DNA from: Saccoglossus kowalevskii | Taxonomy: Eukaryota > Hemichordata > Enteropneusta > Harrimaniidae | Direction of reading: 5' to 3' | DNA length: 64,000 nucleotides | Assembly (NCBI RefSeq): GCF_000003605.2 | Contig: NW_003140820.1 | Location: 217,160 to 281,159, forward strand | Part shown: piece by piece, positions 9,659 through 61,194 of the stretch | Layout of the letters: each line of letters opens with the position of its first letter | How positions within the stretch are numbered: position 1 is the first letter of the stretch | The notes under the pieces: model-generated | What the model was told of the DNA's origin: nothing | The model's database searches: none | Seen by the model: the letters and a program-made list of their open reading frames with translations, nothing else | Position numbers and translations under genes: made by a program

Positions 9659-10431
9659 ATGTTGCTTGGAATTTTGAGGACTGCTTGGTTCTTGTTGTGT
9701 CTGCTCGTGTTCGGCTACACTTTCATTGTCAGCGGTATAATCATTAATTTGTTGCAATGTTGTTCACTCGTTATCTGGCCGTTCAGCAGGAAGATATATC
9801 GAATCATCAACTGCAAGCTGGCGTATTATCACTGGTGTCGTAAGTAAACTGCAGAAAATTCTTGATTTTCTTATGACGTGTAAATCCATTTCTTTAGATA
9901 TTTAACTTTTTCATTCATGAAAACTCAAATCCACTTTTCTCACTAAATTTTGGTTTTTTCATATTTTATTTAAAATTCTTATCAAACCCTGTAGGCAGTT
10001 ATGGCAAACACTAAACGTTCAAATTAGAAGAAACAAAATATTTCGGCTATAATTTGGCTAAGAAAACATGATATGCAGATTGTTGTAAGTTCCAATTTTG
10101 TGTAAATAAATAGTATATGACAAGTGTATAAAAAACCCACCCATTAATCTGAATTCAATAGTTGTATAAGGATTTCAGCAAAATACAATTGACACATAAT
10201 GTGAAGAAGCCATCTTACAAGGCCGAAATGAAAAAAATACATTTTTCTTTTTTTCATACTTTCTTTACATTCAATTTTAAGTTCTGATTCAAAATGGTTG
10301 ACATTGTTCAGATTTTGTTTGCAATGTATTAATTAATACATGTCATGTTGAATACAGTACTTGTTCAATGTGGATTTATTTATTTATTTATTTATTTACA
10401 TGTGTATTTATCTATTTATCTATTTATCTAT

Positions 10432-10514
<83 letters not shown>

Positions 10515-13500
10515 TCTATTTATTTATCTATTTATTTATTTATTTATCTATTTATTTATTTATTTATTCATTTATTTATCTATTTATTTATTTATTTATT
10601 CATTTATTTATTTATTACAAACAATCAATTATATTTTTCTTTGCAAAGAATTGGTATTTATAGGGAATTGGTGGTCAGGCTCTGAAATCGTTCTATACAG
10701 CGAGACGAAAGATCATCATATGTGGGGCCATGAGTCGTCCCTCATCATATTAAACCATCACGACGAGATTGATTGGCTGTTTGGCTGGATTTTATGTTTT
10801 CACTATAATGTGCTTGGTGTAAGTATGCCATAGCAAGCATGGTGCTAACACCGGCATGAAGTCTGAAGTTTTTTCTTCCTCGACATGAACATGGCGTGCT
10901 CACTGTTTAATTTTTTTTCTCTGCAACATTGTTTAGTTCAATAAGTAGTAGTACTTGGCTGAGTTTATTCTGACCCTTCTGCCAATACTTGTCTCACCCA
11001 CTGTTCAAAGTAGAACATTCCTCAATTCCCAGAATGCATTTCTCTCACCGAAAGTTGTGAGAAGGATCCTATTTAATCTCCGTTGTGAAATCCTCCAATG
11101 GTGAGCATAGCCACGTTCTGTTGGTAACAAGAACTTCTGATTTCAGCCAGGAGAGCTGACAGTCCAGCTCTCTGTATTTAAATAAATGATAACTCCATTC
11201 ACCTTACTATTCTGACAGAAATGGTGTACTTGACCGACTCGTGGTCAAGTAGCAATTGTGTGCTTTACATGACTGATGATGATGTCAAATATCTCGGTAA
11301 GGAGACGGCGCTGGTGATTATGAATCACAAATTTGATGTTGATTGGTTGTTTGGCTGGGTAATAACAGATCGGTACAAGTTATTAGGGGTGAGCATATCT
11401 CTTTAAATTCATGCCATATCTTTAATCCTTCATTAGCAGCAAGTTAAGCAAAATTGGACGTTTGTGACTCTCTAAATGCAAAGCATTCTGGATAAAGCCA
11501 TATATGAGCATTAATTCATGTTTTCATTTCTGGTTTTCATTTTTGTTTTGATTGGAAATCATTTTTTGTTTTCAACTAACAGACTGGTCCACTAATCAAG
11601 CTGTTTCCTTTTTAACAAAATAGACAAACTTTAATTTATCATAAATTTTGATTAAGACCTGTATAGCCATTATGGCCATTTATTTGAAAATTAACCCCAG
11701 AAAAATGATAGAAATGTTGCAACAACATATGGGTACTGAAAGTTGATGTTGTGGGCGATGCAATACCCAGAATCCTTTGCGACATGAAGAAAATCGCTGT
11801 CCGCTGATGCTAAACTTGTATCGTGTTGACTTGGTCCTTATGGGGAGGAATATTTTACAATGTATTTTTGTTTTGTTTCTATAACAAGTTTACCAAATTT
11901 TGACAATTGGATTTTCACGGTACAACTAAGAAAACTGAATTCAAACTGTGTACTAGTAGCAGCTTAATACTGTAAGTTTCGCAATTTATTGACGTATGTG
12001 AGCTCTTGTGAAAATCACTCTGGCTTCCTGTCTAAAAGCGACCGTTTTACAAAATGGCATTCATGCATCTGCTAACAAAAAAGGCATTGCAGGCGACAAG
12101 AAACGTAATATGAGGTAAATTGCTGTGGTGTTTGTCTCATCCACCATCTTCGCCTATCCCATCTTGGAAACTCGTGGGTCAAGTGCGTTAATCAGTGCTT
12201 TGTCTCATGAATCAATACTTGTAAAACTACCTTTTAAAGGACCCCAGTGAAAATGTATATTCACTGCGACTAAATTTCATAATTTCGGCAAAAGTTGTTT
12301 TATTACAGTATTTCCATGTAATGTGTAAGGCATTGCATATTAAAACAGTACATTGTTTTTTTGATGCCAGCCCTAAGGACCAATCAACACCTCTATGGAC
12401 CACAGTCATTCTCTACATGTGGGAACACTTCCAACTTGTACTCAATTACTTCTATACACAGTTACTTTATAAAACAAATATGTCACATTCAAAACTTTCC
12501 TTAAAGTCTCTCCTTTTTGTTTCCCTTAATTTTCACTATGCTTTATTTATTTAAAAATGACTAAAATGTGTTGTTTCTAAGTTTGAAGTGATCCCATCTC
12601 ATGGCTTTGCACACCTTAATGTATTAAATATAGTTTTTTGTTTGTTTTTTCATTTTATTATTCTTTGCAAGGTTCATCTGTTTGTTTCTCTCCTCTCTCC
12701 TCCTTGCCAATAACTTCCTCTCCTACAGTATCTAGCTTATGATGGTCTGAGAATATTGTATTTGAAATATTCTTATTTCTCTAAAAGTTTCATGTTCTGT
12801 AATTTATAGTTTATAGATCACTCAAGTTTAGACAATGTCAATAAAATAAGTGTATGCTCTGACCCCCTCTCTCAGTTGCCTGTCTTCCCTACAGTATAGT
12901 ACGAATGGAATCATCCTAAATTATATTCCCAGAATGCATTGCAGCATCACCATATTTTGCATACTGTGACTGTAGTCTGCACTTTCAGCATTCAAGGGAT
13001 TTTGTGATTTTCTTTTTCTTTACTGTTATTAGGGTGAGAGAGTAAGCATGTCGGAGGGGTGACTCAGGAATCTCTTCTTGGCCTTATTAGTACTAGTATT
13101 TGAATTCTACATTTGAACATGTAAATTTATCACTGACGTTTTTTTTCTTAACATGGGATAATCATATGTGAAAAAATTGTGTAAACTGTTTAATTTTCCC
13201 TGTCCCTTAGACCAGAAAAAAGTATGGGAGGAACATTCTCTGTTATCGGATGCATCACAGTGCGTTCATCTTAGTTGTTATGAATCTTAATAGCTCCAAT
13301 GTCAGCTGTGTCATGCCCCCTCCCTCCCTCCCTCCCTCCCTCCCCTTCCCTCAGACCACCATTTCCTGTTAGAGCTATATACTAATAAATTATATTCCAA
13401 TATCAAATAACATAATTTCCTTGCATTCAATTTTTCTTTTTACATTTTTTAAGAGTTCTGAACTTTTTTACTAATGCTGGCTGAATCCCTTATTGCAATT

Positions 13501-16500
13501 TCAATCTTATGTTATATATACAATGCTCTATATAATAAAATGTCTGCTCTCTGACATCTCAAAAACCACTGGCTGGCTAACTTGATAGTTATGCATATTC
13601 ATTTGAATATACCTATCTAAATGGAATTCTACAAATTACCTTAGGTTAATTAATTTGTCCACTTTTATCGTTTACATGTTTTGTTTAGTGAAAATACATT
13701 TCACACACTTCATGTCACCAAATAAATTTCAAATCTGAAATTAATGTACCGGTAATTTGAATATAATTACTGCCAATCTTTGCACGTTTTGTTGCTGTAT
13801 GTTGATACAATTATATCGAAAACAATGTTAAAGATTAAATCAAAATCAGTTTTAGATTTAATCTGTGCATATTGATTAGCTGATTTGCATAAACAATTAA
13901 TTGCATTTCAAATAAATATTTATATATGCCGCCGTGGAAGTTTTAGTTGAGAGCCTCTAGCTTTATTTAAATAAGATCTCTAAGCACCTCTAACTCCCAA
14001 CATTAAAGTAAAATGACTAACATACACTGCATATTGCTACATGCTCAGAATATATCTCACAATTATCCTTCAAATTATTGTGGAACACCTTTGGGGCGGG
14101 GTGTATAGACAGACAGTTGTGTTGCTTCGTTGAAACCCAGAGTCACTGTCCTCTATCATTATTTTCTGCATACACTTCAAATAACTTATTTTTTAGACTT
14201 GTACCTTTATGAATGTAATGAAAATTGAAATTAGTCAACATACTTGCCTTAAAGATTGACAATACTAGGACATATTGTGACCATACTTTACTTGTCTCTC
14301 TGTCCCTTCCAAGCCAGCATCTTGAAACAAGCCCTGAAATGTATTACTTGTACAAACTATGCACACATAAATATCTGTATCAGGTGGGGAATATATTTAT
14401 GAGTGTATTTGGCTGAATGAAGAAATACTGCGACAGATTGATAGCGTGACTAGCAATAGGAAATTTGGGTTGTAACAACAAATTTTGAATGAACATTTAG
14501 GGAACAGATTCAATAGAAGTTGATGAAACTCTGTAAAGTGTTTTAAGACACTGAAGATAGGGATCAAGGAAGTGGTCTAGGTGCTGCGATGCATCATATG
14601 AAGAGCTGGAAAAGTTTATGGGTTACAATTTGCTGCTGTGATTGAAACTTAATTGACTACATTAACTGTACTTTTTCACATAAAAATTATTTAAAAGCGA
14701 AAATAGCAAAATTAAAAAACCAACGAATTATGCGTTTACAGTACCAAAGATAGATACATAAAGGTTTACTGTACAGTGTTTAAAGAGTTTTATTTTAATA
14801 GCTTCGCTCATTTCTTTTTTCATGATCAAACCATTCCATGGTTAACAAGGTAATGTTATCATTTAATTCAAAGTTAAAACATGGAACTCTCAAAAAGCGA
14901 GATTATCATTATATATTGCATTGTTACCAATATATTTGTATTTCTATTTTTGGTAATATTGTTTTGTCAACTATCAATTCCATTGATGTGTAATAGTCTA
15001 TGTAAACACTTTACATCCCAATGAATGCAGTCCTCGTAATTGACTATTGACTAATTGACCGCCCGTTAGTTAATCAATGAATATGAGTGTGCTTCTGGTG
15101 TCACTGTAAACGCATAGCATTATCTTCTCTCTAATACTCAGTTTCGTTCATATTGAAACAATTTTGTAGGCTCTTAATCTTGACAAAATAATCTGATCTT
15201 ACTTGAGTAGAGCTTGTTTGTGTCAGTCCTGGAACAGTGACTCAAGTGTTTGTATCAAAACTTGTTTTAAAATGTAATGCCTTGTTTACTGAGCAGCAAG
15301 TAGACCTGGGGGGGGGGGGGGTCTTGATATTGCATCGCAGTACAGCCACAGAAAAATACAACAACATAATTTGCCACTGTTATTGTTATTGAATTTACTC
15401 ATTGCCTGTTGATACTGGTTTTTTTTTCATTCATTCTGTCTATTCATGGAAGCTTTTGGCAAACGATGAGACAACAATATTCTGAGCAGTGGCTTGATGC
15501 AGCTGTATTTCGTTATGTTAATTATTGGCTACAACATGATAATTACCATTTAATTAGTAGTATACTAAAACTATGATATATATATATATATATGATTATT
15601 ACTTTAACAATATCTGTCTTCACTTTCTGTCTGTCTGTATGCTCTGTTTTGTGACTTCGCTTCATCATGTGATTTAAGGTCAATTTGTATCACTAATCAT
15701 GTTATCATGCTTTGCTCTTGCTGCATGCATCCCATAATACTTCTTTCTGTACTGCTGCCGTTCGTCAATCACACACCTCACTGCTGATCGCTGCAACACA
15801 GGTAGGTGTTCGTTGCTCGTCGATTATTTTTTTATAAGTATAGTTCCATGTATTGGTAAGTACTGCAGGAGTTAAAAGCAGTTTATTGGAAAATTCACAA
15901 AGTGCAATATTGAAATGGTTGGATATTCTGATCTCTCACCTAGACCCTCATGACCCTTGGTTATTGGTGTCCCTGAATAATTCTCATGAGGAAAAACTTA
16001 GCTTTACCGTATTTGGTCTATCGGTAGTATGGTAGTACAATGTGCATTCACTTATGTAAATGAATTTATGGTCAAAATAAGTCATATTTTTAATAATCCA
16101 GTATATTATAAATATAACTGCTGGTTCACATGTGTTAATATCAGAGATGTGCTTCTAATAGAGAAAATACTGCACAATGCTCTGCTAAAAAGCTGCATAT
16201 CTATTTTTATTTTTGGCTTCTTTATGACAATTTGGGATTTTTTCAGAACCTTCGCACGATGAAATTAAGTAGTTATTCATCTATTGTATTTGTTCTATTA
16301 GAAGCGCATCTCCAATATAAATGCACATATGCCAAAAATTGCATATAAATTATGCTGGGTCTTTGCAATATTACTTTTTATTTGGGTGATATTTCACTGT
16401 GAAAAAAATTATTTAATGACCTCTAGGTGCGAGGTTGAATATGAATCCAAAATTTTGATGTATATAGACAATGCATGTTATGATATCAAGGTAGGTAATA

Positions 16501-19500
16501 GACGAGACGCAATGCAGTCTGTTGATATTTGTCAACCGACATTCTGTGTACAATCAGGTCTTTTGGTTTAGTACGTCTAAGAGTTTTATCCCTGGTAAAG
16601 CTTTCAAATTTGGTTCATTTCAGTGCAGAATTAAGCATTTTTTTTTACTGTACAGAGAGAAATTATAAAAAAAAAAATATTTTCAAATTTGCCAGCCTAC
16701 AGACCTGTATGTATACACTACTCTTATTATTGTAATTAAAATTATCAAGATGTATAATAAAATCATTTTAGTTTTTATAGTTGCTGAATTGTATAAATGT
16801 ATGTTTAATGTGTTTCCCATTGTATGTGCCAACATTATAATTTTGTCTTGCTTTTTGTGGCATGTTTATCACAAACTTTCATGAATTGTGTTTGTGTTTT
16901 CTTTACAGTAAATTAACATATATAATCACGAAATAATTTGATATTCAAATTAATCTTTGTTCAGTTTTAAAGCGTAATAGTCATCATGTGAAGTATACTG
17001 TGTGTATTCTTATTCATGCGGCATGCGAGAGTCTAAGGCCGTCATTTGGTTCTAAAATACTGTACTGCTTGGAATTTATTTTCGCTGAAGGGATGATTCC
17101 GTGAAAATAAAATCCAGCGAATATACTTTTTTTCCTATATTTCACATTAAACTCATCAAAAATCAGTGAAAATAAATTTCAAGCAAAACGCCCAAAAAGC
17201 CTTTTCAGCGAAAATTAATTCCAGCGAAAATAAAGTATTCCACAGTAGGCATCTCGGACAGTTGTCATTTTACAGTCGAAAAATGAAATAATTATTATCA
17301 ATTTTTACACATAACAAAAAAATATTCAACATATAAATAATTGTATAAATGAAATATGAACACATAATGCGCTATGCATATGACTGGCGTTTTAAACATG
17401 ATCGCAAATTTTAAAACGTCACCTATGATTTCGTATTCTAGTCTGTTCCCCTCAACACTGTTGTCCAGTTATACACCAATAATAGTGTATCTGTTCTTAG
17501 CACTGCATGGCCACTGAGTTGATGTTGTCATGTGACCTTCTCCAATCCACTTTGCGTAGTGTTAGTTGCTTTTACATGTTAGTAAGACTATGACCTCTGA
17601 CGTGTTTGAAATTTTTTCATATTGACTGATTTAAATGGGAAATTACATCACTTGCATAATATTTGCCATAGAGGGCGTACTTTGAATTGACAGTGCTAAT
17701 CTCTAAATCGTAGCATTCAAGTAACAGGTGTCAAAATAGTGCGAATCAATTTACTGGGTATGAATTTGTTAACGTCCCCTCAGAGTATAAGTAATACAGG
17801 CATATAATATATTAGAGATGAATTAGCGATATCAGGTAAAAATGTAATATTAGAGAAGCGTAAAATAATCAAGTAGTGTGATTCATTGAGTGACCATTAA
17901 TTAAATTTTTTTTCATATCTGAGTTGCTGTGATTGTAAGTGCATGTTGATTGTATTCTTTGAAAGACTTAGGTTCATTCATCGTCAAGGCAGCCTGCTAC
18001 AATTTTCACTGTTATATGTGCAAATTTACCTTAAGTTAAGGGGTACATATTAGCATATAGGAATCAGTGGTGGCTGAAAATTATTTCTAGACAATCCTTA
18101 GCACATATTTTTTGTTGTCTCTTAAAATCCACTTCAAAATTTTCATGTATTTCAATTATATAGACATATTGTTTATTTTATCTTTTTTTCAGTTTAAAAT
18201 TGTTGTTGCATACTCATTCATTATATATAATTTTTCTGCATATATTTGAAATTTTGAGTATTCCTCCAAAAAATTACCTTTGGATTTACTCCTGAATTAA
18301 AAATGTTTAAAAAAAATATGTTCAGTCTGACACATGTCCAATCAGGTGATGCTTTAGTTAAAAACTTCTTTTCTGCGATCTTAGTTTAGTACCGGCCAAT
18401 CTGATTGGTCAGCTGTGAAATACTGTCAAAGATTGATTGGGCAGTTTCTCTGTCATTCTGAATATCTAGGAGTAATTTAGTACTAGTAAATAGCCATGTA
18501 GGAATACACACAACAGAAAAATATATTAGTTATGTCATATTTACAATATTCTTGTTACATCCCTTTTTTGGTTGTCATGTCAACCCAATTTACATATTTT
18601 TGTCTTCATCTTTTAGGCATCTAAAGTGTTTGCAAAGAATTCGTTGAAGTATGTTCCATTTATCGGCTGGTCATGGATATTACTTGAGATGATATTTCTC
18701 CGAAGAGATTGGAATCGAGACAAACCGTACCTGATTGAGCAGCTCAAGGTTCTAGCGGAGTATCCGCTGCATTGCTGGGTGAGACATCATTATGCATAGA
18801 TAATACGGCAAATTTCTACATATCATCACTAATCCTTGTGTCATGTGATTAATAGATAATAGTTTCGAATTATAGGGCAATCAGTCAGTTTCTGTGCAAA
18901 AATGGTGGGTTCATATCTAGGTCGCAGGTTTCCCTAGTTTCCAGCATTCTGATTAGCTATCGAATAAACATTCGTTAGAAAATAGGAAATTGTCACATAT
19001 TTACAACAGAGAGTGCAAGTTTCTAAAGTAACAGCGAAACTTGTCCATTCATGAATACTTTCGATTGGCACAAACAAATGAGTAAACAAAAACTAAAATA
19101 GTGACAGTCGTATTAATAATTTCTGATTTTCGTATTCATGGCTAACTATTGTCACATTTCACTAAATAAACAAAATGTTTGTTGCATCTTCCAGAAAAAA
19201 GTATCAACACCTATAGATAATGTTGCATAATATTAAATTCCAAAATTGGAAGGAAAACAAGATTTGCAATTTTAAAAAAATAAAAAAGGAAGAAGTATTT
19301 ACCACCTTATTGCAATGTTGGGTTCATCATGAATAAAAAAACAAAACAGAAAAAGTGCGAACCATGTATTGTTTGTCATACACTGAAACTTGTACAAGTT
19401 TTTAGCTCCACTGCCAACTTTGTCAAGCAGAGCTTACCATACGAGTGATTGCCTGCCGTCATCTTTTTACTTTTTCGATTTCTTCTTCAAAACTACTTAT

Positions 19501-22500
19501 TGCTTTGATACTTACCGGTAGTGTATATGTATCTTCGGCAGAATTCTCTCAGATTTGTTCATTTTCTAATGATATCTTTAGTTCTTTAATTGAAATATGT
19601 ATTGCTAACAACGGAGCTATCTCAGCTGAGAGACTGCTTGTTCTCATAAAACATGTATGGCCCTTTTCTGAGCCACGACACAAAGAATGAACTACTTTAC
19701 TAATCACAATTTTGATGCAAAGAGTCTCTTTATACAAGCATTATTTTAATAAACAACATCAGGGAGGACTTATGCCTTGGAAGGTGTGGTAAATAAATTC
19801 AAACATGAATTATCTAATCTTGTTGACTATATGTAATTTTCATGGCCAGCTCTCACAATACAATTGACATTTAGTGTCTGGAACAAAAATATTTTATAAA
19901 TATTAAATGTTAAAAATGGCTTTTTTGTATTTATTAGGTGTGTATTGTACCTTGAATTTTTTCTCTTGTATTTCCATTTTAGACACTTCTTTTTTGTGAA
20001 GGAACTCGGTTCACAGAGTCAAAGAAAGCTCGTAGCAATGAAATAGCAAGAGCAAAAGGACTGCCAGAACTTAAACATCATCTATTGCCGAGGACCAAGG
20101 GATTTGTTGTTGTTATGGAGGCATTCAAGGGCAAAGGTAAAGAACAATTTTTATAGTTTGAGTTTTGGCCAAAGCCACTGTACCCGGGGTGAGTTTACGA
20201 CATACACAATGGGAAGGCCAAAGCCACTGCACCCTGGATGAGTGTACTACGGACGCAATTGGGAGAACAAAGCCACTGTATCCAAGGTGAGTGTACCACA
20301 GACACAATGGGGAGACCAAAGCCACAGTACTCTGGGTGAGTGTACCACACACACAATGGAAAGGCCAAAGCCAAAATGTACTATCAGTTCTTGCAGCAAA
20401 GAGAGCGAGAGAGAGCTGTGACATTCATATGTCAAAATTTGTTTTCCAAAAATACAAAAATGTATCTTCTAATGCTGTTCTATTTGTTTTTATGATATTT
20501 TCAGTTCCTGCTATCTATGACTGTACACTTTCATGTTCTGCTGATTATGCCGAACCTACTATGTATAATGTGGTGATGGGCAGAAAATGTCAAGGACACA
20601 TGCTTGTTAGGTGAGCCATCATTTATGTGAAGTTTAAATATATCTCAAAATGCACAGGAAAATATTTTTGAAAAGTGAAGTAGATTTCCAGCTCTCCCTT
20701 CTTCCTATAATTTTATTAGTCCCCGTTCGAACGAAGTCCGAAAACGGGGACTTATAATTCGGTCTCCGTCCGTCCATGCGTCTGGGCGTCTGTGCGTCCG
20801 TGCGTCCGTCCGGAGTCATATCTCAGAATCCCTTGGACCGATTCCGTTCATTCTTTGCTTGTGCCTAGTACTTTATGTGGGACATATGCACATGCAGTTG
20901 TTTAGCGATTTGATTCAAAATGGCCGACTGGCAGCCATCTTGTTTTTTGAAAATGTTGTATTTTGGACATGCTTTGTCAGTTTTCATTCAAACTTGGTAC
21001 ATAGATTATACATGTTAGGATACATGTCCATGATGATTTATTTCACAATTGGATCAAAGATGGCCGACTGGCAGCCATCTTGTTTTTGGAAAATGTAATA
21101 TTTTGGACATGCTTTGTCAGTTTTCATTCAAATTTAGTACATAGATCATACATGTTAGGATACATGTCCCCGACCGTCCGTGAGTTCTTGAGTCTGTCCG
21201 TCCGTCTGTCCGTCCGTCAGTCTGTCCGTCATATTTTAGAATCCTGTGGACCGATTCCGTTCATTCTTTGCATGTGCCTAGTACCTTATGTGGGACATAT
21301 GCACATGCAGTAGTTTAGCGATTCGATTCAAAATGGCCGACTGGCAGCCATCTTGTTTTTTGAAAATGTTGTATTTTGGACATGCTTTGTCAGTTGTCAT
21401 TCAAACTTGGTACATAGATTATACATGTTAGGATACATGTCCATAACGATTTATTTCACAATTGGATCAATGATGGCCAACTGGCAGGCATCTTGTTTTT
21501 GTTTTTTTATGCGGTATCTTGGACGTGCTCTGTCAGTTTTCATTCAAATTTGGCACATACATGTACTTTATACATGTTAGGATGCATGTCCATGACAATG
21601 TGTTTCAAAATCTGGTCAAGGATGGCCGATTGACAGCCATCTGACTTTTTGGCCTTACTACTATATTTCCACAATTTATGTACCATTTTCATTCGTATTT
21701 GGCACATCATACATATCAGTGTGTTTCAGAATCAGATCAAAGATGGCCGAATAACGGCTGTTTTTATTTTGGCCATATTACTATGACACGAAACACGTGT
21801 TTTGATGTAAATAAACAATCTGTTGTATACGCCACTTGGAATTCAAGTTTCAAGGACACACTCGCGACAACCCCTCCGCTTTAATATGATGAGCACAAAG
21901 AGAACTTAACGGGGACTGTGTCATTTTCAATGACTTGTTTAAATTAAGAATGACCTCTTGAAACAAACTCCTGCATTAAAGCAAAGGGATAGTCACCTGT
22001 GCACATGTGAGAATTGAGTTCTAAGGGATGATATCAACACATGCTAAAAACGCAAAGGCTCATGGGTATGTGTTAATGCTTACTGTAAAACATGTTGAAA
22101 AAGCGGCATGCAATTATAGCGAATTGTGGTAAAATGACATAATAGCGAAATGTTGATTTAGCGAATCTTTCTTGTCATTGTTGATTTCTTTGTTTGGCGG
22201 CCATTTTGAATTGATAATAAAGTCATTAGCGACATCTTGAATTAGCGAATCAGTTCCCTCTCTAAATTCGCGAAAAAGACATGCTCGCAAAAAAGACATG
22301 TTTTACAGTATTTGTAAACCACACAATATGGCCGTCTATCGCATGCACAGGTGACGAATCTCCCTGTTTGACAATTGTAATTTTGTTGCTTTTTTGGGGC
22401 AAGTTTTACAGTACAATCAAAGCTGTCTCTACAAGGTTGTACTTTCAACAAAAATTCTCTGAACACCACCCTCTGTGGCATCTTTTCAATTTTAAAATGT

Positions 22501-24953
22501 TATTTGTTTTTTGTTTCATGAAAAGTCTTCTCATGCATTTTTTTCTCTCAGACGAATAAAGATAACTGATGTTCCTACAGATACAGAAGAAAATACTGCC
22601 AACTTTTGTCACCAGATTTATCAATTTAAGGTAGAACTTTTTTTTTTATTTTCATTCGTATAAATATGATAGTTAGATCCTAATTCTGCTCTCAGTGTAC
22701 TGTCAGGTAGGCCAGGCAAACAAATAGTAATGTTTCTAGTTACGGTATCCATTGGTATCTTTAAAAAAAATAAAAAAGTAAAGAAAATACTATACGCACA
22801 TGTACATCAATTTTGCAAAAACAGATTGACTGTATGTAAATACAATACGCACATGTACATCAATTTTGCAAAAACAGATTGACTGTATGTAAATACAATA
22901 CGCACATGTACATCAATTTTGCAAAAACAGATTGACTGTATGTGAATCAGTAAATTTGAACATTTGTTTTGAAGTGTATTTGTATGTCAGTCAAAATCAA
23001 AGGCATAATAATTTTCATGCATCACAGCACCACATGGTAGTCAAAGATAATGAGAGTTCATACTAGTATCATGCATTGAGTGTTTTTCCAGGAAGAAGGG
23101 GTCAATGGGGGAGTAAATTGTAATTGTAATTTCTTCCTGGGCTTGGATAGTTATTAATCCAGTGATGTGATATTTCACTATTCTGCTTTATATGTCGTCC
23201 CTTTAATTATTAAATTGGTAATTTTTGTTTATTTGTATTTTTTTGTTTCAGGACAGAGCATATGAACATTTTCAGAAAAATCAAACATACGAAAATTTTG
23301 AAGGCGGCAAGTTCCATAAACATGTGATTCCAAGGCGTTATGCGTCCTTACTAATTGAGACGTTCTGGGTTTTAGTCCTCGCAGTTCCATCTTTTTATTA
23401 CTTTATAAGTCTGATGATAAACGGGTCTTTATGGGTGACTGTGACGGTGTTTGTCTTCATAGTGCTGTGTAAGTAATTGTAATAATAGCATATTCATCAT
23501 TTAATACAAGGTTATTACAAGAATACAAGTGATCATATTGACCAACGTCAGAGGTACATTACTTGGGGTTTGCAACGCGCATAGTACTGTATGGTGACAT
23601 CATGTCAAGATCTCATTCAAGTCTCATCTTGTAGATAGCGAAACTGATGCTACGATCTTCTGACATGACATAGGCGGTTTTTAATAAAACAATAAAACAT
23701 GTATTACCACATTCATAGTGAAAAAATGTAATACATTTCATACCGCAGTTCAGACAGAGATAACAAACCAAAATACACACTGTACAATACACCAGATTAG
23801 CCATGAACCATATTTAATATCTTCTTGACCTTGAGAAAAAAAATTGTGGTGGAACTAAGATTATTCTGCTGTATGATTTGATTTCTCGAAACCTAGCTGT
23901 CCTGTTCGTAATAGTGCCCTCAGTGTAACAAAACTCAATGACCCTTGAGAATACTCTCTACTGCACAGCGCCCTCTGTTGAAGAATTGATGAAACTTGCA
24001 AAATGTGTGCTCCTCAAGAATTTGACCAAAAACAATTTTTTTTTTAAATGAACACAAATATACCTGACAATTGTTGTCACATCTCTAGAATTTCAAGTAA
24101 TGTTTGAATACTTGATCCATAAGAGTCACATGAACTGGGATACAGTGAACCTGGTTTGTTTATGAAACAACATCTTGTTGACTTCTTGCCATTTTCATCA
24201 TCAACATCAACAAGTTCTTATTAAAAAAATTATTACTATTAGTGGATCAAGTAATTAAAATGTAGAAAAATAAATGACATAGGCTGTATGCACTTGTATC
24301 AATTTAGGCATGCATTGCTGACTATTTTGGTCATAAAATGGCTCCACAAACTATTTTAAACACCATATTTCAGGCATACATGCAGGGGTTTGACCATAGG
24401 TTCATCTGCTACGAATATTTGGACTGAATTTTTTGATCATCACGGTGGCTGTCTAAACTTGGTCTTGGAAAACACAAACATAGGCTCCTAACATATACCG
24501 TACATGTATGCTTGGTTGGTCCTTGCCTGGCAGATCAGTTCTTCAATAAAATTTTTTGATAATAAAATCAAATGGTGGGGGTAGTTTTTTCGTTACCCAG
24601 TGTTGTGTAGTAAATAAAACTTGAAGAAATTATGTGATGAGAGTGCTATAGGCGGCCGTGTGAATGCAATATACCGGTATGTGCAACAGGTTGAAAGGAA
24701 GCCCCTGGTCTGGTTGCATTCCCCTTATGTGAAGGCATATCAAAGGGGATATATCTGTTATGATATTCATAAAATACAAACACACAAGAGCTATGTAATC
24801 TCACAGATATCTATTTTTTTTGCAGCTGTTCTGTTGATACGTGCAATGATTTCTGTAACAGACAGACATCAAGGATCCACCTATGGAAAAGTAGCTCAGA
24901 AAGATGAAAACAACGGTATTGTTATGAATGGCAGTAATAAGAAAATACAATAG
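9659..24953 (+). CDS. 1-acylglycerol-3-phosphate acyltransferase, AGPAT3/AGPAT4 group
   Basis: The family moves an acyl chain from acyl-CoA to a lysophospholipid, classically lysophosphatidic acid, in ER or Golgi membranes. Coding exons are 9659-9839, then either 10649-10818 or 11219-11388, then 18617-18778, 19983-20136, 20505-20610, 22552-22630, 23252-23468 and 24826-24953. All borders are GT-AG and the sum is 1197 nt, i.e. 398 aa (human AGPAT4 is about 378). The start ATG at 9659 matches the vertebrate N-terminus in length; the TTG at 9623 does not. Seen in order: an N-terminal membrane segment (residues about 4-30); motif I NHX4D in the alternative exon; GWSWILLEMIFLRRDW (motif II); CEGTRFTESKKARS (motif III); LPRTKGF; VPAIYD (motif IV); two hydrophobic C-terminal stretches; and ISVTDRHQGSTYGK, equivalent to the vertebrate IGVTEI(D/E)KGS(A/S)YG. 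An acceptor at 9606 (tttacatgtag) implies an upstream non-coding exon. Orthology to AGPAT3 rather than AGPAT4 cannot be decided here. Confidence 0.95.
10373..10616 (+). repeat. TTTA microsatellite, about 240 bp
   Basis: About 60 units of TTTA/TTTATC with a few interruptions. It gives open frames in all three plus frames (repeating LFIY) that are not genes. It ends about 32 nt before the acceptor of AGPAT exon 2a. Confidence 0.97.
10649..10818 (+). CDS. Alternative catalytic exon 2a of the AGPAT gene
   Basis: This 170-nt exon completes the split codon C|AA (Gln) and adds 56 codons. It is flanked by the acceptor ttttctttgcaaag and the donor gtaagt. It encodes NWWSGSE followed by the motif I block LIILNHHDEIDWLFGW, then ends NVLG in phase 0, which joins ASKVFAKN of exon 3. 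The NHX4D motif is intact (N-H-H-D-E-I-D). The WWSG(S/T)E stretch is shared with vertebrate AGPAT3/4. The exon has the same length and phases as the one 400 nt downstream, with 24 of 57 residues identical by hand alignment. A long TTTA microsatellite ends about 32 nt before its acceptor. Confidence 0.88.
11219..11388 (+). CDS. Alternative catalytic exon 2b of the AGPAT gene
   Basis: This 170-nt exon has the same phases as exon 2a, with acceptor ctattctgacag and donor gtgagc. It encodes DSWSSSN, then GKETALVIMNHKFDVDWLFG, then DRYKLLG. The catalytic NHX4D is intact (N-H-K-F-D-V-D). Around motif I it is closer to vertebrate AGPAT3/4 (GKE..., NHKFEID or NHNFEID) than exon 2a is, but it has lost the WWSG(S/T)E form. 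If spliced directly after exon 2a it would read AAA TGG TGT ACT TGA and stop at the fifth codon, so the pair cannot be used in series. Confidence 0.9.
11389..18616 (+). other. Long AGPAT intron 2
   Basis: About 7.2 kb with no further copy of the catalytic exon seen (no second NHX4D/DWLFGW block). It holds one family 1 MITE, a short CCCT run near 13318-13345, a G-run near 15308 and a TA run near 15572. A donor-like cag|gtaggt at 15802 has no convincing exon in front of it. Confidence 0.5.
17058..17247. mobile_element. Foldback MITE family 1, copy 3 (reverse orientation)
   Basis: It begins TA|CTGTACTGCTTGGAATTT and ends gcgaaaataaagtattccac plus AG|TA. It is well preserved and lies in AGPAT intron 2. 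Confidence 0.75.
19402..19590 (-). mobile_element. HINE-1, copy 2 (3' end fragment)
   Basis: The reverse complement ends with the same GAGCTCC...GGAGCTAAAAA hairpin and CTAA terminus as the copy at the window start, preceded by part of one core unit. It lies in AGPAT intron 3. The match covers the terminal hairpin, the GACGGCAGG segment and the GAACAAATCTGAGA motif. Confidence 0.55.
20169..20372 (+). repeat. 49-bp tandem repeat with donor-like motifs
   Basis: ccaaagccac-type starts at 20169, 20218, 20267, 20316 and 20365, a constant 49-bp period. Each of the four units has a (g/a)tgagt motif resembling a 5' splice site. The array begins 33 nt after the real exon 4 donor of AGPAT. Confidence 0.9.
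20716..21946 (-). mobile_element. Helentron-like element HINE-2, copy A
   Basis: On the minus strand the element ends with a hairpin (aagtccccgtt ... aacggggact) followed by CTAA. Inside this is a GGAC-type microsatellite, then ~140-bp core units recognised by gccgactggcagccatcttg at 20923, 21063, 21336, 21478 and weaker ones after. The far boundary is set by loss of identity with copy B after tttaaatta. It lies in AGPAT intron 5, about 100 bp after exon 5. Reading frames in it (for example FWTCFVS...HSNLVHR) are repeat sequence, not genes. Confidence 0.6.
21976..22365. mobile_element. TTAA-type MITE split by a TA-type MITE
   Basis: It starts TTAAAGCAAAGGGATAGTCA and resembles 6982-7135 (cacctgtgcacatg, aattgagt, acgcaaaggctcatgg). 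The right part resumes at tatggccgtctatcgcatgc. The terminal TTAA on the right is not clear. Confidence 0.5.
22081..22309. mobile_element. TA-flanked MITE, family 4, nested in a TTAA-type MITE
   Basis: TA|CTGTAAAACATGTTGAAAA at the left and agacatgttttacag|TA at the right. Flanking sequence on both sides belongs to a TTAA element that begins at 21976, so this is a younger insertion. It lies in AGPAT intron 5. Confidence 0.65.
22793..22951 (+). repeat. 53-bp tandem repeat, three copies
   Basis: Units starting tacgcacatgtacatcaatt at 22793, 22846 and 22899, almost identical. In AGPAT intron 6. Confidence 0.9.
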
Positions 24954-30953: not shown

Positions 30954-31575
30954 NNNNNNNNNNNNNNNNNNNNNNNNNNNNNNNNNNNNNNNNNNNNNNN
31001 NNNNNNNNNNNNNNNNNNNNNNNNNNNNNNNNNNNNNNNNNNNNNNNNNNNNNNNNNNNNNNNNNNNNNNNNNNNNNNNNNNNNNNNNNNNNNNNNNNNN
31101 NNNNNNNNNNNNNNNNNNNNNNNNNNNNNNNNNNNNNNNNNNNNNNNNNNNNNNNNNNNNNNNNNNNNNNNNNNNNNNNNNNNNNNNNNNNNNNNNNNNN
31201 NNNNNNNNNNNNNNNNNNNNNNNNNNNNNNNNNNNNNNNNNNNNNNNNNNNNNNNNNNNNNNNNNNNNNNNNNNNNNNNNNNNNNNNNNNNNNNNNNNNN
31301 NNNNNNNNNNNNNNNNNNNNNNNNNNNNNNNNNNNNNNNNNNNNNNNNNNNNNNNNNNNNNNNNNNNNNNNNNNNNNNNNNNNNNNNNNNNNNNNNNNNN
31401 NNNNNNNNNNNNNNNNNNNNNNNNNNNNNNNNNNNNNNNNNNNNNNNNNNNNNNNNNNNNNNNNNNNNNNNNNNNNNNNNNNNNNNNNNNNNNNNNNNNN
31501 NNNNNNNNNNNNNNNNNNNNNNNNNNNNNNNNNNNNNNNNNNNNNNNNNNNNNNNNNNNNNNNNNNNNNNNNNNN
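30954..31575. other. Assembly gap (622 N)
   Basis: Run of N. Left flank is the 31-bp array, right flank is the inside of HINE-2. No feature can be called inside it. Confidence 1.
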
Positions 31576-32269
31576 CCGTTCATTCTTTGCATGTGCCTAG
31601 TACCTTATGTGGGACATATGCACATGCAGTGGTTTAGCGATTCCATTCAAAATGGCCGACTGGCAGCCATCTTGTTTTTTGAAAATGTTATATTTTGGAC
31701 ATGCTTTGTCAGTTGTCATTCAAACTTGGTACATAGATTATACATGTTAGGATACATGTCCATGACGATTTATTTTGCAATTGGATCAAAGATGGTCGAC
31801 TGGCAGGCATCTTGTTTTTGTTTTTTTATGCGGTATCTTGGACGTGCTCTGTCAGTTTTCATTCAAATTTGGCACATACATGTACTTTATACATGTTAGG
31901 ATGCATGTCCATGACAATTTGTTTCAAAATCTGGTCAAGGATGGCCGATTGACAGCCATCTGACTTTTTGGCCTTACTACTATATTTCCACAATTTATGT
32001 ACCATTTTCATTCGTATTTGGCACATACATCATACATATCAGTGTGTTTCATAATCAGATCAAAGATGGCTGAATAACGGCTGTTTTTATTTTGGCTATA
32101 TTACTATGACACGAAACAAGTGTTTTAATGTAAATAAACAATCTGTTGTATACGCCACTTGGAACTCAAGTTTCAAGGACACGCTCGCGACAACCCCTCC
32201 GCTTTAATATGACGAGCACAAAAAGAACTTAACGGGGACTGTGTCATTTTCAATGACTTGTTTAAATTA
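31576..32269 (-). mobile_element. HINE-2, copy B (partly lost in an assembly gap)
   Basis: This is nearly identical to 21257-21946 with scattered substitutions. Its terminal-hairpin end should fall inside the gap before 31576. The right end joins the 31-bp tandem array exactly where identity with copy A stops. If it is full length like copy A, it would begin near 31037, which agrees with the 622-N gap size. Confidence 0.65.
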
Positions 32270-44607: not shown

Positions 44608-46857
44608 TTAACAAGACACCGTTGCTTTGGGATGCATGGGTTCCCATTTGATGACTTCCTCACCACGTCGTTCGCCACGTTTTGAATTAAAATCCTTCAG
44701 CAGTACCGTCTGTCCTTTTTTCGAAGCGATAATACTCTGCTTTAGTTGCTTTTGCAGTTCGCGTATGATTGTCCGCATGTCGAGAGCGGGGTAGCTGGAT
44801 CTTCGTAAAGTTTCTGTTGGGGGGAAAGCTAAAATAAAGTCCCCAACAGTTGGAGGAGGACGGTTACGACTCACACCTTTGGAGTGTAAATTAGACAATG
44901 AGTCGGCCATTGGTCTCTGACGAAATGACATCCTGGTTTTAGCACCACTCACTGTGTTACCGGTACTTCTTTGTTGTGCTGGGATATTGGATCCAAATTT
45001 ACCCGATATATGGTATTGGGTTTTCTGCGCCATACCCATATGAGTCTGAGCTCGATTGTAACGATTTGGTGGCTTGTCGGGAGGATGGGGTATGACAACG
45101 GCAGCTGAGGAACTCTGCTTGGGATGCATGTCAGTTTCCTGAAACGTACTTGATCTTGAGTAATTTGCAACATGCAAAGACGAATCTGCTCCTGATGTAT
45201 GTTGATTTTCTTTGTGTGACTGAAGAGTCTCACAATGATTTTCAACATGTTGTTTTGATTCATCAATATCTGGCAATGACAGGGCATGTGACATAGAATT
45301 TGAACTTTTCGTGCTGATCGCACCGTCAGATTGTACTGATACTTTCGTTTCATTGCTTAATTTATTCTGTCCGATGGTCGTCTGTCTTGTCCGGCCACCA
45401 CGATAATCCCTCCTGATAGTTCCGGGTTTTCTGTGTGATGCTGTTTTTGTAGTTGACACTGTGGCAACTCCTTTATATGTCTTTTCGTTTGAAGCTGTAT
45501 CCGTATTGCCACCACGGCTACTTGCGCTACTAGCACCTTTACTGGAAGACCTACTTGGTGATCTCCGATCTTCTACAACATTCTTACTGATACTCGGCAG
45601 CCTGCTACCAGAATGCGTAGAACTGACTGATGTTTTTTTACGTGGCGACATTGAGGTGTTGTTAGTTTTACGATAATTTAGTCCGTAGTTGTTTGGTCGG
45701 CCATAAGTCTGGCGTATTAGATTGGCACGAAATGCCTCCCCACCCTTCTCGCTATCTTTTTCCGTAAAAGACAGCATATCAATAAGGTCATTCAGCATTG
45801 GTTTCTTGACTTGTTGATCAATCGGGCAGTCTACTCCGAGCGCAGGACTGAAATTAACTTCAAGCAACCAGGGTTTCATGTTTTCGTCAATCAAAATGTC
45901 AAAGCCGAATAGCTCAAAGCAGTTTGAAATCTTTGGAACAGACTGCACTTGAGCTAGAATGGTAAGATTGACAATGTTACTTATGCGTTGCCATAGTAAT
46001 GAGTCATCGATATTCTGTTGATGAAAGTAGTTGCGTAGGGTAGTCAGACTCCATTTGCATCCAGGTCCGACTCTCTCCTTATCAGTTGTATAGGACGGAC
46101 TTAGTTTGTTGATGCTGGTATTAGTAAGGTGCGAGAATCGGTTGTCCAAAGTCGTTAAGTCAAATTTCTCAGTACCGAAACGTACCAGACCTTCCTTGTA
46201 AATGTAAATGTTCAAAGGGTGAAAGCAGGACACGTTAACGTAGATACGTAAATCAAATTTATACCCTGAAATCAGCAGCGGGTTGTTAATGTACTGTTGC
46301 ACCACTGCTGAACAGTCATACTGTAAATCTTTGAGATCTCGAAATATGAAAATACCACGGCCACGGGATAAATCAGCTGGCTTGCATATCCACAGAATTT
46401 CTTTCTCTTCACTATTCTGCTTCATTTTTGTATACTCTGCAACATATTTGGTGTAATCGTTTGGCAAGTTAAACCCTACCGGTGTAAAATTATAAACATG
46501 CACACCATAGACCCCTCTCATGCGTCGCATGGTTCGGGAAAGTGAATCCTTCTTGGTTATGGCAGTTGTCTTGGGGAAATGATTGATGCGTTGCCATGGT
46601 AATATATCATTGTAGTCAGATAGTCGGAAACGTGTGGTCTTCCACCAGAGATTCCATTCATGTTCTTCATTTTCACCCTCTTCGAACTCTATCCACCCCC
46701 TTTCCAAGAGGGCCATTCGTACTGCTTCTGGGCCATTGTCAAGTCGGAAAACGAACGAGTTGTTGCTCAGTTTGGAACTGACTGGCGTAACACTTGTAGA
46801 CTCGCTGTCATAGTCTGAGACATCGCTGTCAATCGATGACATTGGACGGTATGACAT
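44608..46857 (-). CDS. TTLL2: Tubulin tyrosine ligase-like protein 2 (probable tubulin polyglutamylase)
   Basis: TTLL enzymes use ATP to add glutamate (or glycine) side chains to tubulin tails on ciliary and other stable microtubules; TTLL2 is a probable polyglutamylase. The open frame is a single coding exon of 749 aa from the ATG at 46857; the frame runs further upstream only through non-ATG codons. The TTL/ATP-grasp core covers residues about 35-360: WICKPADLSRGRGIFIF (about 156-172), YKFDLRIYV (about 199-207), EGLVRFGTEKFDL (about 222-234), HLTNTSINK (243-251), and CFELFGFDILIDENMKPW followed by LLEVNFSPAL (about 313-340). A Ser/Arg/Lys-rich tail follows, ending with GDFILAFPPTETLRR and IIRELQKQLKQ, which resembles the end of human TTLL2. 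A minus-strand acceptor (tttttttcag) at 46960 and a donor (gcgag then gtaagt) near 47774 suggest a 5' UTR intron. An AATAAA on the minus strand at 44384-44389 fits a short 3' UTR. Confidence 0.95.
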   Translation of the reverse strand: MSYRPMSSIDSDVSDYDSESTSVTPVSSKLSNNSFVFRLDNGPEAVRMALLERGWIEFEEGENEEHEWNLWWKTTRFRLSDYNDILPWQRINHFPKTTAITKKDSLSRTMRRMRGVYGVHVYNFTPVGFNLPNDYTKYVAEYTKMKQNSEEKEILWICKPADLSRGRGIFIFRDLKDLQYDCSAVVQQYINNPLLISGYKFDLRIYVNVSCFHPLNIYIYKEGLVRFGTEKFDLTTLDNRFSHLTNTSINKLSPSYTTDKERVGPGCKWSLTTLRNYFHQQNIDDSLLWQRISNIVNLTILAQVQSVPKISNCFELFGFDILIDENMKPWLLEVNFSPALGVDCPIDQQVKKPMLNDLIDMLSFTEKDSEKGGEAFRANLIRQTYGRPNNYGLNYRKTNNTSMSPRKKTSVSSTHSGSRLPSISKNVVEDRRSPSRSSSKGASSASSRGGNTDTASNEKTYKGVATVSTTKTASHRKPGTIRRDYRGGRTRQTTIGQNKLSNETKVSVQSDGAISTKSSNSMSHALSLPDIDESKQHVENHCETLQSHKENQHTSGADSSLHVANYSRSSTFQETDMHPKQSSSAAVVIPHPPDKPPNRYNRAQTHMGMAQKTQYHISGKFGSNIPAQQRSTGNTVSGAKTRMSFRQRPMADSLSNLHSKGVSRNRPPPTVGDFILAFPPTETLRRSSYPALDMRTIIRELQKQLKQSIIASKKGQTVLLKDFNSKRGERRGEEVIKWEPMHPKATVSC

Positions 46858-46957
46858 TGTCGTAAAAAGAAAATATTCAGGTGATTGAAGCAGTGCACGT
46901 CCCACTTGGCATTGTTTAGGGAAAGATATGGTTTACTGTGCTTTCCACTTCAGTGGT

Positions 46958-55125: not shown

Positions 55126-61194
<6,069 letters not shown>

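Follow-up and report, generated by a model that had tools for sequence, protein, structure and literature searches.

The window, by which we mean the whole stretch of 64,000 nucleotides of Saccoglossus kowalevskii DNA analysed here, carries on its forward strand an AGPAT3/4-like acyltransferase gene whose coding sequence (9659-24953), read directly from the letters and rebuilt by script, is intact and has GT-AG introns throughout (Table 1). The second coding exon of this gene is present in two versions, 2a and 2b. Each of them measures 170 nt, is bounded by GT-AG sites, is entered in phase 1 and left in phase 0, and encodes the same region of 57 residues, with the NHX4D motif of the family within it. 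With its flanks, exon 2a reads tttgcaaag/AATTGG...CTTGGT/gtaagt and exon 2b ttctgacag/AAATGG...TTAGGG/gtgagc, the slashes marking the borders. Their translations are QLVFIGNWWSGSEIVLYSETKDHHMWGHESSLIILNHHDEIDWLFGWILCFHYNVLG for 2a and QMVYLTDSWSSSNCVLYMTDDDVKYLGKETALVIMNHKFDVDWLFGWVITDRYKLLG for 2b. Spliced models that take 2a alone or 2b alone both yield a full product of 398 residues, while those joining 2a to 2b meet a stop after 121 residues, four residues into the second exon, and those skipping both stop after 62 residues. The initial annotation had given the positions, lengths, phases and identity counts of the two exons, and our scripted reconstruction of the region returned the same values; it had further proposed that joining both exons or neither breaks the frame, which these stops bear out, and that the isoforms differ in this region only, which is right at the level of sequence. 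The runs of N in the window lie at 30954-31575 and 56557-56925, and no assembly gap is found near the exon pair.

Table 1. Coding exons and neighbouring elements of the AGPAT3/4-like gene (positions are those of the window; the slash marks an exon border)
Feature	Position	Strand	Remarks
Coding exon 1	9659..9839	+	Start ATG at 9659; hydrophobic N-terminal segment; donor C/gtaagt in phase 1; matched in assembly search
(ATTT) array, 60.8 copies	10374..10616	+	Intronic, shortly before exon 2a
Exon 2a, 170 nt, catalytic: WWSGSE ... NHHDEID	10649..10818	+	Motif I at 10753-10773
Intron between 2a and 2b, 400 nt	10819..11218	+	
Exon 2b, 170 nt, catalytic: SWSSSN ... NHKFDVD	11219..11388	+	Motif I at 11323-11343
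Exon 3 (ASKVFAKNSLKYVPFIGWSW...)	18617..18778	+	Motif II FLRR
Exon 4	19983..20136	+	Motif III EGTR; motif IV LLPRTKG
Exon 5	20505..20610	+	Spliced model, matched in assembly search
Exon 6	22552..22630	+	Spliced model, matched in assembly search
Exon 7	23252..23468	+	Spliced model, matched in assembly search
Exon 8, stop codon TAG	24826..24953	+	Spliced model, matched in assembly search

Two minisatellites are also lodged in introns of the gene, one at 20167-20373 (49-bp unit, 4.2 copies) and the other at 22785-22947 (53-bp unit, 3.1 copies, 98% match).

The domains of the product are those of an AGPAT3/4-like acyltransferase. The acyltransferase domain PF01553 scores 45.0 bits in the 2a form and 46.1 bits in the 2b form, and the C-terminal domain PF16076 scores 64.9 and 65.0 bits, respectively. 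The four motifs of the family, recognized by the rules given in PMC6688108, follow one another in the expected order, I being NHHDEID or NHKFDVD, II FLRR, III EGTR and IV LLPRTKG; by our count, the key residues of motif I are N96, H97 and D102. Compared with working versions of the human AGPAT3 and AGPAT4 sequences, the two family members covered, 157-159 of the 398 residues are identical (about 40%). When the 572-Mb assembly was searched with the 2a isoform, each of the nine exons was found once. Among the best candidates scored (10 and 13), the search brought up no further AGPAT3/4-like gene; apart from these exons, the protein matched only contig C1047, and that distantly (E = 6.6e-4 and 0.0013). 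The gene therefore seems, from this search, to be the only one of its kind in the assembly. A parallel search with PF01553 gave 11 matches, that on C1047 among them, several being paired on one contig (C4616, C1919). Because it missed the gene of the window itself, this second search is no test for further AGPAT3/4-like genes, and it illustrates that an exon-by-exon domain search can miss intron-rich members of the acyltransferase family. Finally, one scan of viral contigs returned 10 pattern matches, none of which encodes a relative.

How similar are the two exons, and what does the similarity tell us? At the protein level, 24 of 57 residues are identical and 37 of 57 are identical or similar (BLOSUM62), while at the nucleotide level identity is 86/170. 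This identity is distributed very unevenly along the codons, with 26/56 at first positions, 42/57 at second positions and 18/57 at third positions. Third positions are thus near random and second positions are kept. We simulated neutral divergence by placing 84 changes at random sites of either exon, with 20,000 runs per direction. The mean amino-acid identity fell to 11.5 and 11.8, and no run in either direction attained the observed 24; of the 20,000 simulated copies in each direction, just 620 and 841, respectively, were still free of stops. A scan of the window for paired stop-free frames of 57 codons, 200-2999 nt apart, sharing 20 or more identities and limited to segments of at least 14 distinct residues, gave 59 matches in three clusters, two of them in a dispersed repeat at about 20.9-21.5 kb and the third being the 2a/2b pair. 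None of six first-order Markov control sequences gave such a pair, even at 16 identities. When each exon was used as a tblastn query against the window, it found the other at E = 6.6e-15, and the next best match stood at E = 0.66. The resemblance of the two exons is not due to chance. A third copy of exon 2 was found neither in the 64-kb window by tblastn nor among the best assembly candidates scored (10 and 13).

The repeat that accounts for the two other clusters deserves a word of its own. It lies at 20679-21500 and again at about 31580-31900 of the window, has internal near-copies and has kept long open frames (QNGRLAAILFFENV...); these internal copies make up the sole other paired frames of the scan.

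Two trivial sources of an exon pair were considered and rejected. Alleles, or a duplication created during assembly, do not agree with a nucleotide identity of 86/170 and with the lack of any gap nearby. Two separate genes are not in keeping with the single set of flanking exons that serves both copies, no second set having been found among the best assembly candidates scored.

The two copies have been under coding constraint since they were duplicated. Because their third positions are so far gone, both were probably selected at the protein level for most of the time since the split: with third positions so decayed, a copy left to drift freely would have lost its second positions too. If one copy has fallen out of use, it can have done so only recently. 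Comparison with the working versions of the human sequences goes in the same direction. Without gaps, exon 2a matches AGPAT3 and AGPAT4 at 25 and 22 of 57 residues, and exon 2b at 23 and 23; of the residues common to the two human proteins, six are retained by 2a alone and six others by 2b alone. Judged from these counts and from the nearly equal Pfam scores of the two isoforms, neither exon gives the impression of having decayed. Both are probably still selected today.

Taken together, equal length, identical phases, homology and the mark of coding selection, along with the broken frames that result from joint inclusion or joint skipping, make it likely that 2a and 2b are tandem-duplicated mutually exclusive exons, with exclusion enforced at least by the reading frame. 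This had been the reading of the initial annotation, and it comes out well supported. In such a scenario an ancient tandem duplication would have doubled exon 2, the carrier of NHX4D, and neither copy would have been lost since, with the pre-mRNA now being spliced as 1-2a-3 or as 1-2b-3. A full protein comes from the single-exon forms only, because each exon has a length of 170 nt (2 modulo 3). Both exons would be used in mRNA, by a choice that is presumably regulated, and transcripts with both exons or with neither would run into the early stops and be lost to nonsense-mediated decay. The outcome would be two enzymes of 398 residues with the N-terminus, motifs II-IV and the C-terminal domain in common, probably differing in activity, substrate fit or membrane seating, and probably deployed according to tissue or stage.

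This design is a familiar one. In the human census of mutually exclusive exon clusters described in PMC5740500, the largest class, 377 of 629 clusters (60%), has exon lengths not divisible by three, exactly as 2a and 2b do; 57 clusters (9%) show possible steric interference and five have incompatible U2 and U12 acceptors. The same source reports reads that join both exons for 83 of these 377 clusters, so that the frame rule does not stop splicing itself. One may then ask whether double inclusion is the very purpose of the pair, the second exon serving mainly to make early-stop transcripts that lower expression of the gene. The stop four residues into the second exon is what such a regulated off-switch would need, but a poison exon need not keep 57 homologous, constrained codons together with an intact catalytic motif, and we regard this explanation as very improbable.

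What could govern the choice of exon? The acceptor of exon 2a is the sole one of the eight in the gene to end in AAG, the others ending in CAG or TAG, and it is preceded by 289 nt free of AG, as against 17-87 nt at the seven other acceptors. This long AG-free stretch is there because of the (ATTT) array, which may be a regulatory element or platform, a role that is our inference, or may be an ordinary microsatellite. The odd acceptor and the long array in front of it could be taken to speak for one exon, 2a, being vestigial, a former alternative exon now out of use, its frame still open because the loss is recent. Set against this are the contrast between second and third codon positions, the absence of any stop, the exact retention of length and phase, and the six family residues that each copy alone has kept (by the working versions of human AGPAT3 and AGPAT4). 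That one of the exons is vestigial is, in our judgement, unlikely, and we retain the reading in which both serve as mutually exclusive exons.

As for the means of exclusion beyond the frame, the introns offer few hints. A branch-point-like TGCTAAC, tied for best by our own simple score, is found 29 nt after the 2a donor, with AGs coming after it. The AG-free stretch before the 2b acceptor covers 49 nt of the 400-nt intron and holds other branch-point candidates. Exclusion by steric hindrance, or by a distant branch point of the kind known in OGDH, is not supported, this AG-free run being just 49 nt long. We also looked for competing pairing between introns, in a test that covered the intron sequence outside the (ATTT) array and, of the downstream intron, its first 812 nt. 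In 31, 5 and 23 of 60 shuffles the duplex energy was as good as that of the real introns, which is a weak test, as near-whole introns were used; the lowest count, 5/60, belonged to the intervening intron paired with the first 812 nt of the downstream intron. The longest complementary runs were of 12, 12 and 13 nt, within the range of 20 shuffles each. Over the sequence covered, neither duplex energies nor longest runs gave a clear signal of competing intron pairing.

The swapped segment begins where the N-terminal region ends and extends through NHX4D; in this surrounding of the catalytic histidine and aspartate, 33 of 57 positions differ between the two versions. All four X of the motif are among them (HDEI in 2a, KFDV in 2b). 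Both exons retain the catalytic N, H and D, along with the hydrophobic residues found five positions ahead of H and directly ahead of D (PMC6688108). Two residues beyond the catalytic histidine, at exon position 39, 2a has D, while 2b has F, as do the working versions of human AGPAT3 and AGPAT4. Two readings of these differences have to be balanced against one another. In the first, which the initial annotation had proposed, the swap is a strict substrate switch, the two enzymes differing in their preference for an acyl donor or acceptor. Replacement of every X residue, and of much of the stretch before the motif, would fit such a switch, and there are precedents: in C. elegans, exchange of core exons of the same length changes the substrate of COQ-2 (PMC7434440), and the gate exons of ACSL6 change activity on oleate about tenfold (PMC2868784). 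Against it, human tandem-exon swaps tend to avoid ligand-binding residues, a trend for which the authors cite enrichment at protein ends (PMC9741552), and reviews link motif I to catalysis or to the acceptor rather than to the donor. Specifically, one review connects the acyl acceptor with motifs I and III, and the donor with motif IV (PMC6688108). Elsewhere it is motifs II and III that are tied to acceptor binding, motif I being essential for activity, with motif I mutants of the E. coli GPAT losing Vmax and showing no change in Km; the same review records a dissenting proposal for LPCAT1, where acyl-CoA would bind at motif II (PMC4280512). On this basis the swapped exon points more to rate or to acceptor handling than to donor choice; an altered rate, fit of the acceptor or seating in the membrane is no less likely an outcome than an altered acyl donor. 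A solved relative on which to place the swapped residues with respect to the substrate tunnel was sought in the PDB. A single-sequence search with the full isoforms matched no chain at E up to 1 and did not reach the Thermotoga PlsC structure (PMC6688108); a search with a fragment matched BlaR1 alone (E 0.29-0.93), which we took as noise. All considered, we would hold a strict switch of substrate to be a serious possibility, falling a little short of an even chance.

In the second reading the substrates stay the same, and the exons tune the level of activity, stability, placement in a membrane or organelle, or the fit to a partner. Retention of the catalytic core and of its hydrophobic neighbours in both exons is consistent with this, as is the observation that changes made by human tandem exons are mostly conservative (PMC9741552). 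Yet the exchange of F for D at position 39 is large for mere fine tuning. We consider this reading a possible one, in which our confidence stays below even. It is also only tentatively that we put forward the broadest form of the proposal, namely that one AGPAT3/4 gene, through splicing of its NHX4D exon, makes two acyltransferases that differ in substrate use, obtaining from a single locus a diversity that vertebrates derive from the paralogues AGPAT3 and AGPAT4, and thereby setting the acyl or head-group composition of phospholipids. Vertebrate AGPAT3 and AGPAT4 share with the present gene the order of motifs, the C-terminal domain and, by the working versions of the human sequences, about 40% of residues, but they are two separate genes, in contrast with one gene with two catalytic exons.

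Among known systems, we would single out coq-2 as the closest precedent, by analogy of design. In C. elegans its exons 6a and 6e, 134 nt each, are mutually exclusive, and which of them is taken alters part of the enzyme core and thereby the substrate; exon pairs of a similar kind are reported in parasitic helminths, annelids and molluscs (PMC7434440). Like 2a and 2b, these are homologous exons in tandem, of equal length that is not a multiple of three, which swap a core part of a membrane-bound enzyme of a lipid pathway. The differences are that enzyme and fold are others, that the AGPAT swap includes the catalytic His/Asp motif itself, and that coq-2 is backed by RNA, genetic and comparative evidence, the AGPAT pair being a candidate predicted from genome sequence. 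A search of the present assembly for COQ2-type exon pairs yielded, for its part, six UbiA matches. The Y-gate and F-gate of human ACSL6 and ACSL1 provide another parallel, with alternative exons of a fatty-acyl enzyme changing the gate of the active site and the activity (PMC2868784, PMC1543647). There, the swap concerns 26 residues of an acyl-CoA synthetase, against 57 residues, the catalytic motif included, of an acyltransferase; the gate exons can also both be skipped, giving a form with an activity not reliably distinguishable from control (PMC2868784). Splicing also changes the preferred lipid of CYP4F3, which is a human cytochrome P450 spliced in a tissue-specific way (Christmas et al. 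1999, 2001, as cited in PMC7434440). Mutually exclusive homologous exons are found in further metabolic enzymes. In OGDH, exons 4a and 4b exclude one another through distant branch points, placed close to the donor of the intron that separates them (PMC7969005), a mechanism that is unsupported for 2a and 2b. In KHK, the swapped part includes a catalytic arginine, which both versions retain (PMC9741552).

How uncommon is a swap of this kind? Human tandem-exon swaps involve 14% of residues and 10.7% of predicted functional residues, for which the authors cite mostly enrichment at protein ends (PMC9741552). With these figures in mind, exchange of the catalytic motif itself would be somewhat unusual. 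Splice events that change the core of a catalytic site together with its specificity are rare according to the authors of PMC7434440, who cite CYP4F3. Among the open-licence PubMed Central papers listed by our searches, we found no case of mutually exclusive or duplicated exons in an AGPAT or LPAAT gene, in agreement with the initial annotation, which had known of none in AGPAT3/4. The main text of PMC9741552 does not contain the words acyltransferase, ACSL or AGPAT, and the acyltransferase passages of PMC12442299 concern tafazzin. We have here, then, a known gene design, a probable mutually exclusive exon pair, in a gene for which these papers gave no earlier report. Should both exons be used, nature would have set up a paired experiment on the residues that flank NHX4D, within a protein otherwise identical and in a family where a single-sequence search reached no solved relative, and would provide a case of membrane lipid composition set by splicing.

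Several other features of the window and of the assembly may be recorded. On the reverse strand, at 44608-46932, an uninterrupted frame of 774 residues encodes a tubulin-tyrosine ligase domain (PF03133, E 5.5e-80); located beside an intron-rich gene, it could be a retrogene or a TTLL gene with a large exon. On the forward strand, at 57021-57326, just after the second run of N, a frame with a THAP domain (PF05485, E 4.1e-10) is possibly part of a transposon-derived gene. The mitochondrial contig C4830, of 17,037 bases, has an unusual gene order, with COX1 between ND1 and COX2 and on the opposite strand, and reads TGA as Trp. Its AAA codons fall at sites that we take to be conserved lysines. The ND1 frame is open under the invertebrate mitochondrial code and broken under the vertebrate one.
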